Notes under the pieces: model-generated
Told to the model about the DNA's origin: nothing
What the model saw: the letters and a program-made list of their open reading frames with translations, nothing else
The model's database searches: none
Position numbers and translations under genes: made by a program
Shown: positions 9,534-43,200 of the stretch, in pieces
Position numbering within the stretch: the first letter of the stretch is position 1
How the letters are laid out: each line of letters starts with the position of its first letter
Origin: Eubacteriaceae bacterium
GTDB lineage: Bacteria > Bacillota > Clostridia > Eubacteriales > Anaerofustaceae
NCBI GenBank assembly: GCA_009782875.1
Contig: WRIE01000006.1
Location: 1-64,000 of the forward strand
DNA: 64,000 nucleotides
Direction of reading: 5' to 3'

Positions 9534-10513
9534 GTGCAATATTATAATAATATAATTGTCCCAGAGATTTTGCCGCCATCAGAAGATGGCGTGTTTAAGA
9601 CATTGCTTACACACCCAGAAGCCAAGCCAGTCTTGCGAGATGTCGTCGAGAGCTACCTACGGTTTCCAGTTGTTAACGTTGAAGTTAAGAATACAGAACT
9701 GCCAATTTCAAATATCAACGAAAAACACGAGCGGTTCGATGTGAATTGCACAATTGATGATGGTAGCCAGCTCGACCTGGAAATGCAGGCTGAAGCCATG
9801 AAAGGTGACAGTTTTCCCACAAACCACCAGATCATTAAAAGCAGGTCAATATACTATCTTACTGACCTTCACTCAAGCCAGGACGGCCGCAGTGTGCTAC
9901 GACAAGTTGTTGCGAAGCTACCAGATGACTTTGTGCGGGTACACTGTGTTTCAAGAACGCAAAGGTTTCGTTAGCCGGTTTAGTTTCCGTGAAGAAGATG
10001 GATATGAGCTCGCAGACGACGTGGGGATTATATTCGTTGAGCTGACTAAACTGAGTGGCATAGTCTAAGAAACCAGTCGATTTGATGACAGGGGAGGAGC
10101 TTTGGAGCGTGTTTTTCGCCCACGCTTCTGATTCGAAATATGTGGAATTGATAAGCAAGATGATTGCTGCAAGGAAGGAGATCAAGATGGCGGATGAGTT
10201 GCTACGGTCAATCAGCCAAGACGAAGTCGAGCGCGCACATTTCCGTTCTCGCCGCATGTTCCTGATGGATAGGCAACATGACCTTCTTGTTGCTCGGGAC
10301 GAGGGGCGTGATGAGGGGTTCAAGGAGGGGCGCGAGGAAGGGCGCGAGGAAGGGCGCGAGGAGGGGCGCGAGGAAGGGCGCGAAGAGGGGCGCGAGGAGA
10401 AGGAAAGGGAGGTTGTCAAGAACGCTTTGGGCATGAATATGCCTGTCGACGATATTGTTCATCTTACTGGCTTAACCCTCGAAGAAATTGAAAGATTGCG
10501 CGACACAGACTAA
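9534..10513 (+). pseudogene. Rpn/PDDEXK_2-family nuclease-transposase, two frameshifts
   Basis: Three successive plus-strand frames join into one Rpn-type (PD-(D/E)XK, PF12784-like) protein of about 325 residues. Frame 1 carries DGVFKTLLTHPEAKPVL, NTELPISN, RFDV and DLEMQ (nuclease core). After a slip near 9895, frame 2 carries YDKLLRSYQMTLCGYTVF and GIIFVELTKLSGIV. After a single-base insertion near 10063, frame 3 carries PVDLMTGEELWSVFFAHA, the RSRRMF region and a repetitive C-terminus. The family is linked to recombination-promoting nucleases and is often multicopy. Both breaks are small indels, so the gene is recently inactivated or miscalled. Confidence 0.8.
10328..10399 (+). repeat. Six 12-bp tandem repeats encoding GREE
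   Basis: Six consecutive 12-base units of the form gggcgcgaggaa/g run in frame in the C-terminal region of the Rpn-family pseudogene and encode Gly-Arg-Glu-Glu repeats. Such charged repeats are common at the C-terminus of this family. The units differ only at synonymous positions. Confidence 0.9.
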
Positions 10514-30100: not shown

Positions 30101-30823
30101 CTAAACTACTATGGCAGAATGCGCTGTCTCTAGCAGCGGGTTCTTGTCGCCCCATCTGTAGACAGACTCAAATGCGTTGTAGACATACTCGATTTGCTCC
30201 CAAGACAATTTTAGGGAGCGGAATTCTACCAAATCGGGCTTCAAGAAGTTAATTGATGTGTACTTGCCCCATATCTCATTTTGGTACGCCAAGTAATCTT
30301 CATAGCTCATAATCGAGCCGTCAGGAGTCATTTTTATCAACTCGGAGAATGATACTTTGTACTTATTGTGGTCGAAAAAGTCTTGGTTATAGCCGCCATC
30401 AGCCATCAAGTCAAAAAAGAGCTTCTTTTCTTCATCATTTGCTAAGAAAGTCGCGTGCAGCCCGCATTTGTCGCTAAACACGAAGTCATCATAAAAATCG
30501 AGGATCTCGCAAATCTTTAAAAATAACGGCTTAAGCTCCTCTTTTGTCATGGGAAGCAGGACTATCTCAACATTGAAGTCGCTGGAAATTGTAATGTCTG
30601 GCACAAATTTGCCCTTGTCGCCAACAACGTTTACCATTTTTTCCAACCCAGTTTTTATGTATCGGCTGCTCTCTTTCGAGTAGTTGATGCCGAACTCGAT
30701 CTCCAAACCGCAGCCTCTTAAATTGTAGAAGCTCTTGAGGTTGTCGTCTCCCATCCTTAGTATACGGCGGAATTCGCGCTCGTCTTTTAAGCGCCTTTTT
30801 CTAAGGGATCTTTCATTGTCCAT
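30101..30823 (-). CDS. Amidoligase-like (glutamine-synthetase/GCS-fold) protein
   Basis: 240 residues from ATG 30823, which has AGGTGA five bases upstream (an in-frame ATG at 30853 lacks a site). The sequence shows the amidoligase (PF12224-like) signatures: GCGLEIEFG (metal-binding glutamates), FNVEIVLLPMTKEEL (second acidic strand), DKCGLHATF (CGxHxxx strand) and a late VEFRSLKLSW. Such enzymes, related to gamma-glutamyl-cysteine ligase, are predicted to form amide bonds on small molecules or peptides. No transferase, peptidase or peptide-substrate gene is adjacent, so the target is unknown. Charged N-terminal helix (ERSLRKRRLKDEREFRR). Confidence 0.65.
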   Translation of the reverse strand: MDNERSLRKRRLKDEREFRRILRMGDDNLKSFYNLRGCGLEIEFGINYSKESSRYIKTGLEKMVNVVGDKGKFVPDITISSDFNVEIVLLPMTKEELKPLFLKICEILDFYDDFVFSDKCGLHATFLANDEEKKLFFDLMADGGYNQDFFDHNKYKVSFSELIKMTPDGSIMSYEDYLAYQNEIWGKYTSINFLKPDLVEFRSLKLSWEQIEYVYNAFESVYRWGDKNPLLETAHSAIVV

Positions 30824-31924
30824 ATGTTCACCTGATTTCACTTGAAATGACATAACTCTAACGTTGCAGTGCTAAAAAAGAAAATAGAAAGTGCTGCTTG
30901 GCTCTCCAAAAAAGCAACAAAGTGTTGCGAAAATGGGATATGTAGATTGTAGTTCAGTTTTTTTTATAATTTTAGCAAAGTCAAATCGATTTTGTCAATT
31001 AAGATTTCATTAAGGGGGTTTCGCTGATTATTCATGCTTGAGACAACAATTTTGTTATATTTTTTAATCCTTTTTAATTTCGAAAGGAGTCAATAGCATG
31101 AAAATATTGTCAAAAAATCAAGATCAAAGTACGAGTATATCGAAATGTCCCATAATTGCGACTTTGTTACAAATGTTTAGAATTTATTGTTATGCCCTCA
31201 AAGCATCATATTTAAAATAAAGCTTCTAAAAAGTTGCCTGTGCAAATAAATTCACCAAGGCGCGCTTATTGCAGGCATCTATCCTTCTTAATTCTTGAGC
31301 GCGAACAATATATCAATTTAACGCCTCTTTTTATTGGTATACAGATATCAGACATGCCTTAAAGAATTGCGTTTCATTGTGTTGCATGGGGCGTATGAAG
31401 AAAGCCTGCAAACCATTAATATATAAATGTCTGCCATTTGGACAATAGCAAATATGTCGATCCAGCAGCAATGTGTTCCCCTGACGATAATGGCAGTGAA
31501 GAGCGGCTTTTCAGCCATTTTTAATATTTTATATTCGAATCTACAAAAATATCAAGAATATTAAAATTGCAGAGCGATTTTAATCAACAGGGATTTACAG
31601 CTTGGCATGCCTGTTTATCCACATTTAGCAATAATTCTAAAATTCAATAGAAGTTTTCATATTAATTTGCAATGCTTATACTTGCCAGTTGTAGGCATAA
31701 TAAAGGCAACAAATATGAATGACAAACAGCCTTTCTATCAGGAAATGCCTTATATAAGCGCTCCTTGCTTGAGCCCATAACAAGTGCGTCCAATTTTTTT
31801 CAAATCCCATTCGCTATGCAAATTTCACAAAATGAATATCCTGGATGAATGAAACTGTATTGTACGGGCATACTTGTCCTAGCAGCAAGAAGCAATCAAA
31901 AAAACTGGAATGCCTGATGGTTGC
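30824..31924 (+). other. Gene-poor AT-rich interval
   Basis: About 1.1 kb with no gene of normal size on either strand; only the 40-residue frame at 31098-31220 has a convincing ribosome-binding site. One DnaA-box-like nonamer (ttatccaca, 31615-31623) occurs singly. No rRNA, tRNA or known structured RNA was recognised. Confidence 0.5.
31098..31220 (+). CDS. Possible 40-residue peptide gene
   Basis: AAGGAG lies nine bases upstream of ATG 31098, in an otherwise gene-free region, with an AT-rich promoter-like stretch (TTGAGA ... TATATT) above it. It encodes 40 residues: a polar N-terminus (MKILSKNQDQSTSISK) then a hydrophobic, Cys- and Tyr-containing tail (PIIATLLQMFRIYCYALK). No family recognised. 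It could be a secreted or membrane peptide, or the start of a decayed gene. Confidence 0.35.
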   Translation: MKILSKNQDQSTSISKCPIIATLLQMFRIYCYALKASYLK

Positions 31925-32014
31925 CCAGCAATAAAATTGTTCATCAAGTATCTAAACTATGGTACTAAAGATAACTGCTAAAATGGGGCCTATGTCAATG
32001 GGCCCCTTCTTTTT
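31925..32014 (+). promoter_or_regulatory. Structured element copy A (unit plus hairpin)
   Basis: A roughly 60-base conserved lead-in (agcaata..attgtt..agtatc..ggtac.aaagat.actgctaaa) is followed by a seven-base stem 31985-31991 / 32000-32006 (ggggcct / gggcccc), an eight-base loop and a T-rich tail. The same arrangement recurs at 32179-32268 with compensatory stem changes. It resembles a small transcribed element ending in a terminator. Function unknown. Confidence 0.6.
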
Positions 32015-32178
32015 AATGGAGCTGGCATAACTGAAACAAAACAACCAGAAGACAGGCCTTCTCTGGCGTATATTACATTAATTAGCAAAAAAAATACGAA
32101 TGGATGCGAGAAACAAGGGTATGCTATTATCAGCAGCAAAAAACAATGAAGCATATGGAATCCCATTAAGGAGACCGA

Positions 32179-32268
32179 GCAATATAATTGTTTGCCCAAA
32201 GTATCTTTTCATACAAGGTACCAAAGATTACTGCTAAACAGGAGCTCATGCAAATGGGCTCCATTTTT
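32179..32268 (+). promoter_or_regulatory. Structured element copy B, just before rlmD
   Basis: Second copy of the element at 31925-32014. Stem 32241-32247 / 32256-32262 (ggagctc / gggctcc), loop atgcaaat, then attttt. Base three of the 5' arm is A here and G in copy A, and its partner is T here and C in copy A, so pairing is conserved. It ends 17 bases before the rlmD start, so it could control rlmD. Confidence 0.6.
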
Positions 32269-32285
32269 GTGTTATACTTCGTTTT

Positions 32286-33656
32286 ATGGACGTTCAAAAG
32301 AAAAGTATTATTGAAGTAGACATCATTGAAGATATCTCAATGGAAAAAAGCATGGCAATGGTTGGCGGCAACAGGCTGATTATAAACGGTGGGCACGCAG
32401 GCCAAAGAGCTATGGTAAAATTGCACAAGCTAAAACCTGGCAGATGGGAAGGCCAATTCCTGCAAGCCACACGCAACCCAAGCTTTATTGTGGAGCCTGT
32501 TTGTGCGCACTACAGCAAATGCGGGGGATGCAACATGCTTGATATTGAATACTCCAAGCAACTGGAGCTCAAAGAATCGTATGTGAGAAACCTCCTAGAC
32601 AAAGCGAAAATTGCCACAGAGCTGTTCTCTGGCATCACCCCCTCCCCCTCCCAAATTGCTTACAGGAACAAAATGGAATTCTCGTTTGGGGATGAGGCAA
32701 AAGACGGCCCTTTGGAACTGGGCCTCCATGCAAAGGGCAGGCGCCATGACATCGCGGGCATCAGCTATTGCCACCTTGCCCATTGCGATATCTCAGCTCT
32801 GCTGTTAGCCGCAAAGTCATATTTTAGCCGGATAGGCGCCAGTTTTTATAACGCCTACTCACGCAAAGGCTGGCTTCGCCATTTAGTGCTGCGTCGCTCT
32901 GAGGCAACTGGGGATATCTTGGTATTGCTTGTAACCACGAGCCAAGGGGATCTCGACAAAGAAGGTTTTTGCCAAGCATTGTTAGAGGAAAGCTTGGCAG
33001 GCCAAATCTGCGGCATCATGCATCTGACAAACGATTCTTTTTCAGATGCTGTTTTAAGCCAAAACGAAGAGCTGCTATATGGCCAAAGCCACTACATGGA
33101 CAAATTGCTTGGAATAAGCTTCAAGATCAGCCCATTCTCTTTTTTCCAAACCAATACCAAAGGCGCAGAGTCGCTATGCAAGATTGTCTTGGAAATGCTG
33201 CAGGAGGTTGACGGCTTGAGCGGCGAGATCTATGACCTATACTGTGGAGTCGGAACATTCTCATTGGCGGCAGCAAAGGCTGCAGGGCAAGTAGTTGGTG
33301 TGGAAATCTCGCAGCAAGCGGTAGAGTCAGCAATAGAAAATGCAATGATTAACAAAATCGGCAATTGCAAATTTATTTGCGGCGATGTATTTGAGAACCT
33401 TGGAAACCTTCCTATTAACTCGGGAGTTGTAATTGCAGACCCTCCAAGGGCAGGGTTGGGGCCAAAAGCGCTATCTTCCCTTATCGGGCTTGCGCCCCGG
33501 GCAATTGTATATGTCAGCTGCAAACCCCAGACAATGGCTAGGGAGCTGCCGGCTTTTGTCGAAGCAGGCTATAAGATTGCCCGCATTGCGCCATTGGACA
33601 TGTTTCCAAACACCCAGCATGTGGAAACAGCCGTTTTGTTGGCCCATAACTGTTAG
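32286..33656 (+). CDS. rlmD: 23S rRNA (uracil-C5)-methyltransferase RlmD
   Basis: A 456-residue SAM-dependent RNA m5U methyltransferase of the RumA/TrmA family. An N-terminal TRAM domain (about 1-60) is followed by the [4Fe-4S] motif CAHYSKCGGCNM (about 78-90). The SAM motif is YDLYCGVGTFSLAAAKAA, with VIADPPRAGL and the catalytic YVSCKPQTMAREL (Cys) near the C-terminus. Firmicute RlmCD-type enzymes can modify one or two 23S sites; which one cannot be told here. No clear ribosome-binding site; a TATACT box only seven bases before ATG 32286 raises the possibility of a leaderless transcript. Confidence 0.9.
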   Translation: MDVQKKSIIEVDIIEDISMEKSMAMVGGNRLIINGGHAGQRAMVKLHKLKPGRWEGQFLQATRNPSFIVEPVCAHYSKCGGCNMLDIEYSKQLELKESYVRNLLDKAKIATELFSGITPSPSQIAYRNKMEFSFGDEAKDGPLELGLHAKGRRHDIAGISYCHLAHCDISALLLAAKSYFSRIGASFYNAYSRKGWLRHLVLRRSEATGDILVLLVTTSQGDLDKEGFCQALLEESLAGQICGIMHLTNDSFSDAVLSQNEELLYGQSHYMDKLLGISFKISPFSFFQTNTKGAESLCKIVLEMLQEVDGLSGEIYDLYCGVGTFSLAAAKAAGQVVGVEISQQAVESAIENAMINKIGNCKFICGDVFENLGNLPINSGVVIADPPRAGLGPKALSSLIGLAPRAIVYVSCKPQTMARELPAFVEAGYKIARIAPLDMFPNTQHVETAVLLAHNC

Positions 33657-33976: not shown

Positions 33977-36209
33977 ATGAAAGCATATCCAACAACATTT
34001 GAAGAGCTGATAAATACTTTTCCAACAGAACAGCACTGCATTGACTATTTATACAAATTACGATTTCCGGATGGATTCAAATGCCCTAAGTGCGACAATG
34101 GAAACTCGTGGCTTATTCTGGGCAAACTCCATGAATGCACTAAATGCCACTATCAAATGTCGATTAATGCTGGAACGATCTTCCAAAGCTCATAAAAAGC
34201 CTAAAAAACGTGGTTTATTGCAATTTGGCGAGTTTCAACGCAAAAAAACGGGGCAAGCGCAAAAGGCTTGCAAAATGTGCTGAACCTTAGCAGCTACCAA
34301 ACAGCTTGGCTAATGCTGCATAAAATCCGCAAAGCAATGGCATTCGAAAACCGCTACAAACTAGGCGGCATTGTCGAAGTCGACGAGAGCTATATTGGAA
34401 GTGGAGAAAAGTACGGCAAGAGGGGAAGGGGCGCTAAAAACAAAATACTAGTGCTTTGTAAAGTGGATAACTGGAGCAAAACTGCATCGATGAAACCAAC
34501 AATTTTGCTCCTTAAATATGTAATTACGCCTGATTATCCAATAACATCCGTCGGATAAAGCCTTCTAAACCGGATTCTTGCATCTTCTGGAGTAAACTGC
34601 CAATTTACAGGCTTGTTTTCAGCGTTTCTTTTTGCCTCCCATTCTTTTATATGTTCATTTAGTTCATCTTGACCAGGTATTCTATTGTTGCCCAAGCTCT
34701 GCATTGAGAGCACGCCCAGCTCGCATTCAGCGATGTTTAGCCAGCTTCCATGCACTGGTGTATAGACAAACCTTATTTTGTCTGTTAAACAGCTTGCTAT
34801 GCTTGGCTTGAACAGCGCATAAAAAGCGTCATGTGTATGTGTGGAATAATTGTCACAGACAACCGTAATCCCGTCTGCGTCCGTATACTGCTCCTCTGCC
34901 AGCTTTTTCAACAGCAAAGCGAAATCTTTCCCGGTATGCCGGCTGCGCGCTTCCACGCGCCTCCATCCTGCAAGAGGCTCCGCCATCATAAAAATACTGG
35001 CCGTTTCGCGCCTCACGTCTTCTGAGTCTATTTTTATGGCCTTTCCCTTTGCCTCTATCTCCCCGTCTGGGCCGATTATCGCTGGTGTGGCTGCTATACG
35101 CGCCCGGACTTCGCCAAGAAGCTGGACAGGTTTCTCGTCTATGCTCACAACTGGAACCATTTTGTCGTGCTTTTTTTCATATGTCTTCAAGACAGTTTCC
35201 ATATTGCACAAGGGTCGGCTATACTGGTTATGCACCAATATTTGTCTAAATGCGGCTTGACTTCATTGCTGTCAAGCATTTCGCCTATTGCGCTGTGGGA
35301 TATTGCAACTATATACCCATTTTCAATGCAGTGCCCAGCCAGGAGCCTTAGCGTCCATCTTGCCCTGCCTTCCGGCGCAGGGCTGGTATCACCTTAGCCT
35401 CGAACTCTCCGTCAATCTTGGCGACAAAAGAGTCTGTGAGCCTGGTTTTCCGTTTTAGGGCACGATCCAGCCCGTCTTCTGAATAAGCCTTCCTTACAGC
35501 GTTCACTGTTGTTTGAGACACTGCCAACTCTTCAGATACGCTTCTAACGGTTGCGCCAGCATGGGATTTAAGCAGGATCCCCGCGTGCGTTGACTTGCGG
35601 GCTGAATGGACTCCAGAGCTCACAATTTGGTTTGACTCGTTTATTTCTGAATTGTTTAGTTGAACGGAATATTTGTAAGTAGGCATTGTATTCTCCTGGA
35701 ATTACTTGCCCGCATTGTATATGCTTACAAAATTATTTCATACAATTTTTGCTACAGCTTACCACTTTCAAAGCACTAGGAAGAATTAGAATCAACGCAA
35801 TCAACGCAATCCAGATGCATCCGGCGATTCCCTCCATAGTTTTGTACAAGGCAATATTGAAATTGGCTCGAAAATCATAACTGATGGATGGGCAGGATAC
35901 TCGTTTGCCCAAGGACAGAGGTATGATCATCAAGTCGTTATGCAAAAGGAATATAAGAAAGAAAATGAGGAAGATAGGGCTCTTCCCAACGTGCACCTAG
36001 TAATGTCTTTGGCAAAACGCTGGTTATTGGGAACACATCAGGGGGCAGTAAGCGAAAAGCATATGCATTCCTATTTAGATGAATTCGTATTTCGATTCAA
36101 TAGAAGGAAGTCAAGAGACGGGGGATTGCTCTTCTATAGGCTACTAGAGAATGCCATGCATGTCCCTCATACACCATACAACGAATTTATACAAAAGAAC
36201 AATTCTTGA
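33977..36209 (+). pseudogene. IS1595-family transposase, split and frameshifted
   Basis: The 5' part (33977-34486) has the zinc ribbon FKCPKCDNGNSW and ECTKCHYQMSINAGTIF, a slip near 34195-34208, then WFIAIWRVSTQKNGAS, LQNVLNLSSYQTAWLM and VDESYIGSGEKYGKRGRG (first catalytic Asp). The 3' part (35776-36209) continues at LGRIRINAI, slips, then has SFVQGNIEIGSKIITDGWAG, LPNVHLVMSLAKRWLLGTHQ and a final FRFNRRKSRDGG. The two halves join cleanly around TA-LGRIRIN when the inner insertion is removed. Confidence 0.85.
34487..35775 (-). mobile_element. IS630-family element (nested), transposase frameshifted
   Basis: Minus-strand transposase in three frames. 35686-35348 gives the helix-turn-helix part (THAGILLKSHAGATVRSVSE, TTVNAVRKAYSEDGLDRAL). 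A middle frame gives GRARWTLRLLAGHCIENGYI and KYWCI. 35238-34534 gives the DDE core (VVSIDEKPVQLLGEV, VCDNYSTHTHDAFYAL, YTPVHGSWLNIAECELGVLS). Two frameshifts inactivate it. Ends are inferred from the interrupted IS1595 gene; exact terminal repeats were not resolved. Confidence 0.78.
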
Positions 36210-36469: not shown

Positions 36470-37573
36470 ATGATTAAACTTGATTATGAAGACCGACTAA
36501 ATGTTTCTGAATGGAGCAAGCTGCTGTACAGGCAAGTCATTTACTGGATTGTGCTTGTTTTAGTTGGCGAACTTATCCAGTATGCGAATAAGTCGAGCCA
36601 GCCTGTACCAACTACAGAGTTTTCTTTGCTGTCGTCTATTGTTTTTATACCAACTGCGACACAAGTGGGTATTTTCTTGGTTTCGGTGCTTGCTACTAAC
36701 TACTTCATCAAGAGAGACAACCCCTTTATGCAGTCGTTGTCATTGTGCACAGGCATATGTTTTTTGTGTTTTGCAATCACATGTTTTTTTCACGAAGACA
36801 ACTACTCCATGTACGCAGTGTACTCATTCCCGTTATTGGGGGCATTGTTTTTCGTAGATAAAAAACCTCTCTTATATAGCTTCTGCCTTTCCTTTTGCCT
36901 GTACTTGGTATTCGCATTTGCAATTGAGCCCAAACCAGGTGAAACAGTCCAGCTAGCATCCCAAACAGTGCCTGTTATTTATCTGGTCTGCTGTTTTATT
37001 GTAGCGAATGGCTTGCTGCGCTCGCAGTCCACGCTTTTGCAAAATATCGTTACACAAGACGAGCAGCTCAAACGAGACTCATTCACGAAGCTATTCAACC
37101 ACACTGCTTTTTATGAGCATATGGAAGAATTGATTCTTAGCAATATGCAAGACAAAGTCCCATTTTCGCTAGTATTATGTGATCTTGATAATCTGAAGAT
37201 AATAAATGATTCCTTTGGGCATGAAGTTGGCGACAAGGTTATCCTCGCTTTCGCCGAAACCCTCCAAACTTATGTAAAGGAAGACGGGTATGCTTTCCGG
37301 AATGGCGGAGACGAATTTGCGATATTAATCAAAAAAGATGCCCAAGAAACCAGCAAGCTGTGTCTTGAGATCAAACAGATATTTGAGAAGAAAGCAGCGA
37401 CTTTGCACAACGAAGGAAAATTCACATTCAGCGCAGGTTTATGCGAGTATTCCCACAAGTACTTCTATGGGAGCAAAGAATTCTTTAAAGCGTGCGACGC
37501 AGCGCTATATTCAGCAAAGAAAACCCGAAATACAATAAAGGTCTGGCGAAGGACTGTAGTTAAAGAGGCATAA
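36470..37573 (+). CDS. Membrane diguanylate cyclase (GGDEF)
   Basis: A 367-residue protein with about six N-terminal membrane helices (roughly 18-190) and a C-terminal GGDEF domain. The catalytic motif is FRNGGDEFAIL, and the upstream metal/substrate residues are in VLCDLDNLKIINDSFGHEVGD. It should make cyclic-di-GMP from two GTP at the inner face of the membrane. The RxxD inhibitory site normally five residues before GGDEF is absent (KEDG in that place), so product inhibition is unlikely. The gene has its own TATACT-type promoter around 36428 and no strong ribosome-binding site. Monocistronic. Confidence 0.92.
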   Translation: MIKLDYEDRLNVSEWSKLLYRQVIYWIVLVLVGELIQYANKSSQPVPTTEFSLLSSIVFIPTATQVGIFLVSVLATNYFIKRDNPFMQSLSLCTGICFLCFAITCFFHEDNYSMYAVYSFPLLGALFFVDKKPLLYSFCLSFCLYLVFAFAIEPKPGETVQLASQTVPVIYLVCCFIVANGLLRSQSTLLQNIVTQDEQLKRDSFTKLFNHTAFYEHMEELILSNMQDKVPFSLVLCDLDNLKIINDSFGHEVGDKVILAFAETLQTYVKEDGYAFRNGGDEFAILIKKDAQETSKLCLEIKQIFEKKAATLHNEGKFTFSAGLCEYSHKYFYGSKEFFKACDAALYSAKKTRNTIKVWRRTVVKEA

Positions 37574-38191: not shown

Positions 38192-38472
38192 TCAACCGCC
38201 GTCCCCGTACGGCTGGAAACCAAAAGGCGTCTCAAACCCGTGCTTCCAACCGCTTAACGAGCCAAGGTCGCAAACGTTGCAGTAGTCCAACTCGACTCCA
38301 CGCAAGACACGCCTCCTTCGTTGGTCGGTTCAGACAGCGTTTTTGCCATTGCGGCAGTGTCGCCGAAATACTTGATGGTCTCGGTTTTGACCTTGTCTCC
38401 AACCCTTTTGAATTCCCTAAGGGACCAGTACTCGTTTGTCTTAGTTGACTTGGATATATGCCATGCAACCAA
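38192..38472 (-). pseudogene. Transposase N-terminal scrap joined to rhodanese-like scrap
   Basis: Upper part (38472 to about 38295): WHISKSTKTNEYWSLREF, GDKVKTETIKYFGDT resembles the N-terminus of IS1634-type transposases. Lower part (about 38287-38192), in another frame: DYCNVCDLGSLSGWKHGF then ETPFGFQP, nearly identical to the tail of the rhodanese-like remnant at 42934-43200. Both are incomplete, so this is a patchwork of decayed genes. Confidence 0.4.
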
Positions 38473-42933: not shown

Positions 42934-43200
42934 TTATGGAGCCGAGGGTTTTGGCTTTGCCGCTGTCTTGAAGGGGAATAAAGCTTCATAAACATAATTT
43001 TCTGATGGCTGGAAGCCAAAAGGCGTAGCGAATCCGTGCTTCCAGCAACCTATGGAGCCGAGATCCAATAAGTTGCAGTATCTCATTTCTTCCAGCGCTT
43101 CGCTTTTCTGCCCCGTCATGCAAAACCGATAGATTGAGGTGTTCTTGTATCCTTGCTGCGGGGCATATGTCTATGATAGACAACAATGCTGGGTTTACTC
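42934..43200 (-). pseudogene. Rhodanese-like gene remnant
   Basis: The minus-strand frame ending at 42934 reads C-MTGQKSEALEEMRYCNLLD then LGSIGCWKHGF and ATPFGFQPSENY: a rhodanese active-site loop (CxTGxxS) and C-terminal part. Sequence above 43119 carries further scraps in other frames (LLSIIDICPAARIQEHL, resembling 'xxIDVRxxxEY...H') so the N-terminal half is frameshifted. Its tail is shared with the scrap at 38192-38287. Confidence 0.5.

Follow-up and report, generated by a model that had tools for sequence, protein, structure and literature searches.

A tandem duplication of a terminator-bearing, predicted noncoding unit upstream of rlmD in a Eubacteriaceae genome

Introduction

Tandem paralogous small RNA genes of bacteria are adjacent homologous noncoding units that lie on one strand and carry their own terminators. 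Two units located upstream of rlmD in an assembly of a Eubacteriaceae bacterium (GCA_009782875.1), and analyzed here within a window of 64,000 nucleotides (contig WRIE01000006.1, positions 1 to 64,000), resemble this general kind in adjacency, strand and possession of their own terminators, but match no known family and have only a candidate promoter. Both copies share with intrinsic (Rho-independent) terminators a G+C-rich stem of nine pairs, a four-base loop and a T-run; in contrast to ordinary intrinsic terminators, they carry about 100 conserved bases 5' of the terminator and are arranged in tandem.

Two further systems invite comparison. Tandem riboswitches have been reviewed (PMC9481103), and the units are like them in that two structured units, each with a terminator, stand serially 5' of a gene; they differ in that no antiterminator, no ligand class and no cross-species gene association was found. 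T-box leaders (RF00230) likewise place a structured RNA before a terminator, and the GGTAC of the units recalls part of the T-box by eye, but here there is no Rfam match and GGTAC sits in a small hairpin.

Results

Two similar plus-strand blocks, with the following features, lie in the intergenic stretch that separates rlmD from a minus-strand gene (30101-30853).

31881..32012, plus strand: unit 1 (132 nt), possible junction and intrinsic terminator, delimited by alignment to unit 2
32132..32268, plus strand: unit 2 (137 nt), architecture as in unit 1, delimited by alignment to unit 1
31961-31982, plus strand: lead-in GGTACYAAAGATWACTGCTAAA, copy 1, from a pattern search of the genome itself
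32217-32238, plus strand: lead-in GGTACYAAAGATWACTGCTAAA, copy 2, from the same search
32286..33656, plus strand: rlmD, 23S rRNA uracil-5-methyltransferase family (Pfam PF05958, E 2.6e-26)

In the full-length alignment (31881-32012 against 32132-32268) 100 of 128 aligned bases are identical (~78%), and the tandem duplication is real. The first-pass annotation had described two copies with a common lead-in and T-rich tails, all of which are present in the sequence, and had correctly placed the end of the second tail 17 bases 5' of the rlmD ATG (32286). The copies are spaced 256 bases apart, not about 254, and the repeat, though genuine, is larger than had been noted, with starts at 31881 and 32132 that lie about 80 bases further 5'. 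Its middle and core blocks are more similar than in all 500 shuffles, while shuffle tests gave no between-copy similarity above chance in the 34 bases 5' of AGCAG and none 3' of the terminators (32013-32096 against 32269-32360). The edges of the repeat thus coincide with a possible closing stem, AGCAG/CTGCT, on the 5' side and with the terminator on the 3' side. A third, degenerate copy considered at 31111-31247 was not significant, as 45 of 500 shuffles were equally good.

A possible small gene also lies in this intergenic stretch (31053-31220): an open frame of 40 aa at 31098, with no PHROGs match, is preceded by a good ribosome-binding site, GAAAGGAG, and, 5' of that, by TGTTATATT, which resembles an extended -10 box.

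Translated, the lead-in gives GTKD(N/Y)C-stop in either copy, and the units could instead be a duplicated small protein gene with a terminator behind each copy, a reading we consider quite improbable. Copy 2 has a 45-aa open frame (32100-32237) ending GTKDYC-stop, and the frame of copy 1 ends GTKDNC-stop but is broken; if the break is read through, the peptides are 44% identical. The net gaps between the copies are not multiples of three, the 5' part has no excess of third-position changes (counted by eye), neither ATG has a ribosome-binding site, and no relative was found in 60 other genomes (best E 0.125), Pfam, NCBIfam or PHROGs. The same intergenic stretch contains several unrelated open frames of similar size. 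With the frame not preserved in both copies and no coding-like excess of substitutions in the 5' part, a small protein gene was dropped as the main reading.

In both copies the final stem-loop is G+C-rich, has at least 5 pairs and runs into a stretch of T, as is characteristic of intrinsic terminators.

31985..32006, plus strand: intrinsic terminator 1, 9 pairs, loop GTCA, tail TTCTTTTT (fold z -3.97)
32241..32262, plus strand: intrinsic terminator 2, 9 pairs, loop GCAA, tail ATTTTT (fold z -4.93)

The stem-loops are GGGGCCTAT-GTCA-ATGGGCCCC and GGAGCTCAT-GCAA-ATGGGCTCC, with nine pairs and a four-base loop in place of the seven-base stem and eight-base loop reported earlier, and both fold better than all 200 dinucleotide shuffles (z -4.0 and -4.9). 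Three of the nine stem pairs differ between the copies and pairing is kept in all three: G-C is replaced by A-T, with a change on both sides, and C-G by T-G and T-G by C-G, with one side changed each. The G-C/A-T double change of the first-pass annotation is therefore real, but it is not the only differing pair, and the G-T wobble that each copy possesses is not at the last pair. When four random transitions were placed in the stem, 16% of sets kept all pairs, compared with 0.8% for random changes of any base type. Because pairing survives that share of random transition sets, covariation, which had been put forward as an argument for a selected RNA structure, is weak evidence here; the sole compensatory pair sits in the terminator stem, and outside it changes at paired sites are almost absent, leaving hardly anything to covary. 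The stem changes support selection for a hairpin such as any terminator needs, and no more. The view of the copies as paralogous transcription-related elements is supported, with predicted terminator hairpins that were kept through divergence.

Outside the terminator, a sequence-only fold of the alignment has a stem P1 that closes a P2 arm (with a short inner stem) and a P5 hairpin, and full-length folds of the single copies give this three-way layout in both units.

31881..31885, plus strand: P1 5' strand AGCAG, unit 1 (consensus and full-length folds; invariant, no covariation)
31975..31979, plus strand: P1 3' strand CTGCT, unit 1 (consensus and full-length folds)
32132..32136, plus strand: P1 5' strand AGCAG, unit 2 (consensus and full-length folds)
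32231..32235, plus strand: P1 3' strand CTGCT, unit 2 (consensus and full-length folds)
31891..31941, plus strand: P2 arm, unit 1, AGCAAT (31891-31896) with ATTGTT (31936-31941) (consensus fold)
32142..32192, plus strand: P2 arm, unit 2, AACAAT (32142-32147) with ATTGTT (32187-32192) (consensus fold)
31948..31965, plus strand: P5 hairpin, unit 1, GTATC (31948-31952) with GGTAC (31961-31965) (consensus fold)
32201..32221, plus strand: P5 hairpin, unit 2, GTATC (32201-32205) with GGTAC (32217-32221) (consensus fold)

Nearly all junction pairs sit in columns that are invariant between these two sequences; P2 contains one consistent change (G-U to A-U), and the two-copy comparison gave no secure compensatory change outside the terminators. 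Paired sites differ between the copies at 7 of 66 positions and unpaired sites at 25 of 86. With the terminator removed, the alignment scores better in folding than any of 300 column shuffles (z -5.8), a value that is likely overstated, as single-base column shuffling ignores dinucleotides and the alignment took in a non-homologous 5' stretch. Compared with dinucleotide shuffles, the units without their terminators gave z -2.5 for copy 1 and z -0.85 for copy 2; the latter is no more stable than its shuffles, and its fold does not form P1. A compensatory C-G to T-A change in a hairpin just 5' of each unit was dropped, that stretch not being similar beyond chance. A three-way junction in both units is plausible on these folding predictions.

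Such a fold could also belong to two attenuators in series before rlmD, either tandem orphan riboswitches or protein-binding leaders, in which the junction would control each terminator. The common junction-like fold, with conserved unpaired segments beside P1, the start of the terminator 5 bases after P1, the tandem arrangement on the strand of rlmD and the result of the column shuffles (with the reservation given above) are in line with this arrangement. Against it, the best pairings between the 5' terminator arm and upstream sequence fall at different places in each copy, so that no antiterminator is conserved between them, and outside the terminators there is a single consistent change and nothing securely compensatory. 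Holding the 3' arm of the terminator open costs about 15 kcal/mol in copy 1 and 12 kcal/mol in copy 2.

The following sites were considered as possible promoters.

31654..31682, plus strand: candidate promoter 5' of unit 1, TTTTCA-17-TATACT (pattern match only)
32270..32278, plus strand: extended -10-like TGTTATACT between terminator 2 and rlmD (pattern match only)

The first is the best-scoring promoter site in 31500-32290; promoter matches in the region are about as many as in shuffled sequence on average. Pattern scans detected no convincing promoter and no strong extended -10 site directly 5' of either unit, the latter being a further point for attenuators; internal TA(A/T)AAT words at 31932 and 32183, considered as the start of an RNA of about 70 bases, were no better than chance. 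The 17 bases between terminator 2 and the rlmD ATG contain no Shine-Dalgarno sequence, in contrast to the AAGGAG-type sites found at many genes of the window, and this, together with the promoter-like TGTTATACT 3' of terminator 2, speaks against attenuators. The word TGTTATACT recurs with its start 39 bases before a GGDEF gene at 36470. The arrangement suggests that the rlmD transcript may be separate and nearly leaderless; a leaderless rlmD is not secure, because TGnTATA(A/C)T followed by 7 bases and ATG matches 7 genomic sites, compared with 3 for the control with the pattern reversed. The earlier proposal that terminator read-through controls rlmD is not supported, given the missing conserved antiterminator and Shine-Dalgarno sequence and the presence of TGTTATACT after terminator 2.

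The rlmD gene itself has matches to rlmD-like genes in 40 of the 41 genomes searched and orthologues in relatives at about 40-47% identity. The element is absent 5' of rlmD in 13 of 13 inspected relatives, which counts further against its proposed control of the gene, and a literature search turned up no structured RNA linked to this gene. A short distance 3' of rlmD and a GIY-YIG gene, positions 33977-35686 contain fragments of an IS1595-type transposase and a DDE_3 transposase that has a helix-turn-helix frame beside it.

Within its own genome the lead-in occurs at two places only, even with 3 mismatches allowed (reversed-pattern control 0), so the units are two adjacent copies and not repeats dispersed at random places. 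A covariance model built from both copies, for which a few copy 2 bases were altered, mostly trimmed, to permit alignment, scores 121 and 102 bits on the two real copies. The covariance-model search suggested earlier, extended to the organism's own and related genomes, recovered these copies and yielded no further homologue: nothing else exceeded 34 bits in draws of 120, 67, 391 and 398 genomes, which overlap and reach up to phylum level. Matches of 19-34 bits in other genomes were rejected as chance, those inspected closely lying in AT-rich or protein-coding DNA; two were inside genes for a histidine kinase and a CorC-like membrane protein (named by eye from the frames). Pattern scans of GTDB contigs and IMG/VR gave scattered chance matches only, and blastn against plasmids and phages gave no match. 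Rfam at gathering thresholds identified two tRNAs only in the whole window, and at E up to 10 the best match was BTnc060 at chance level (28.7 bits against a cut-off of 228.9). In line with the earlier statement that the element is neither a T-box nor another familiar riboswitch, no Rfam family matches it. Within everything searched, the element is apparently restricted to this genome.

Two other repeats were seen in the window. A 74-base repeat is present in two copies of 77% identity (38211-38284 and 43007-43080), and short open frames on its minus strand contain GWKHGFxTPFGFQP; a tandem 12-base repeat (CGCGAGGAAGGG-like) occupies 10295-10426, a region of overlapping open frames.

The absence of the element from relatives, together with the transposase genes nearby (33977-35686), would fit what is left of a small mobile element, or else an ancient segmental duplication, in either case serving at most to end transcription. 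This origin appears distinctly unlikely: the genome has only two copies, the terminators have stayed intact in copies that are 78% identical, and paired positions are more conserved than unpaired positions.

Discussion

The two copies are homologous, both end in strong terminators and both are able to fold alike. The best reading, to which we give about an even chance, is a tandem pair of predicted, lineage-specific small RNA genes whose terminators are constitutive. Tandem duplication of a transcribed noncoding unit of about 135 nt would have given two copies, each closed by a constitutive intrinsic terminator of its own; two paralogous small RNAs, separately transcribed from start sites of their own, would be the likeliest products, and rlmD would be transcribed apart, from a putative promoter of its own just 3' of terminator 2.

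This reading is supported because homology does not extend beyond the unit and stops at the terminators, because both terminators are strong and without a competing fold, because paired sites differ less than unpaired sites, and because the element has no rlmD association in relatives. It is weakened because no convincing promoter stands directly 5' of each copy and because copy 2, once stripped of its terminator, does not exceed shuffles in stability. Constitutive terminators of separate transcripts are favored because there is no conserved antiterminator, terminator opening is costly, TGTTATACT follows terminator 2 and rlmD has no ribosome-binding site; both are predicted to be ordinary, strong terminators.

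Attenuators in the rlmD leader we regard as doubtful. Beyond the points above, no Rfam match exceeded chance even at E 10 and no relative was found, and the steady association with related genes across species that marks riboswitches was not seen in 13 rlmD upstream regions, with no homologue detected. Regulation of rlmD by the units is unsupported, and a new tandem class of riboswitch or RNA leader that senses an rRNA-modification or methyl-donor signal and controls rlmD via serial terminators is very improbable.

Tandem attenuators, if true, would constitute a new RNA that regulates an rRNA methylase. The evidence at present favors the more modest reading as small RNAs, under which the units would be a lineage-specific pair in a little-studied bacterial lineage, a finding of modest interest.
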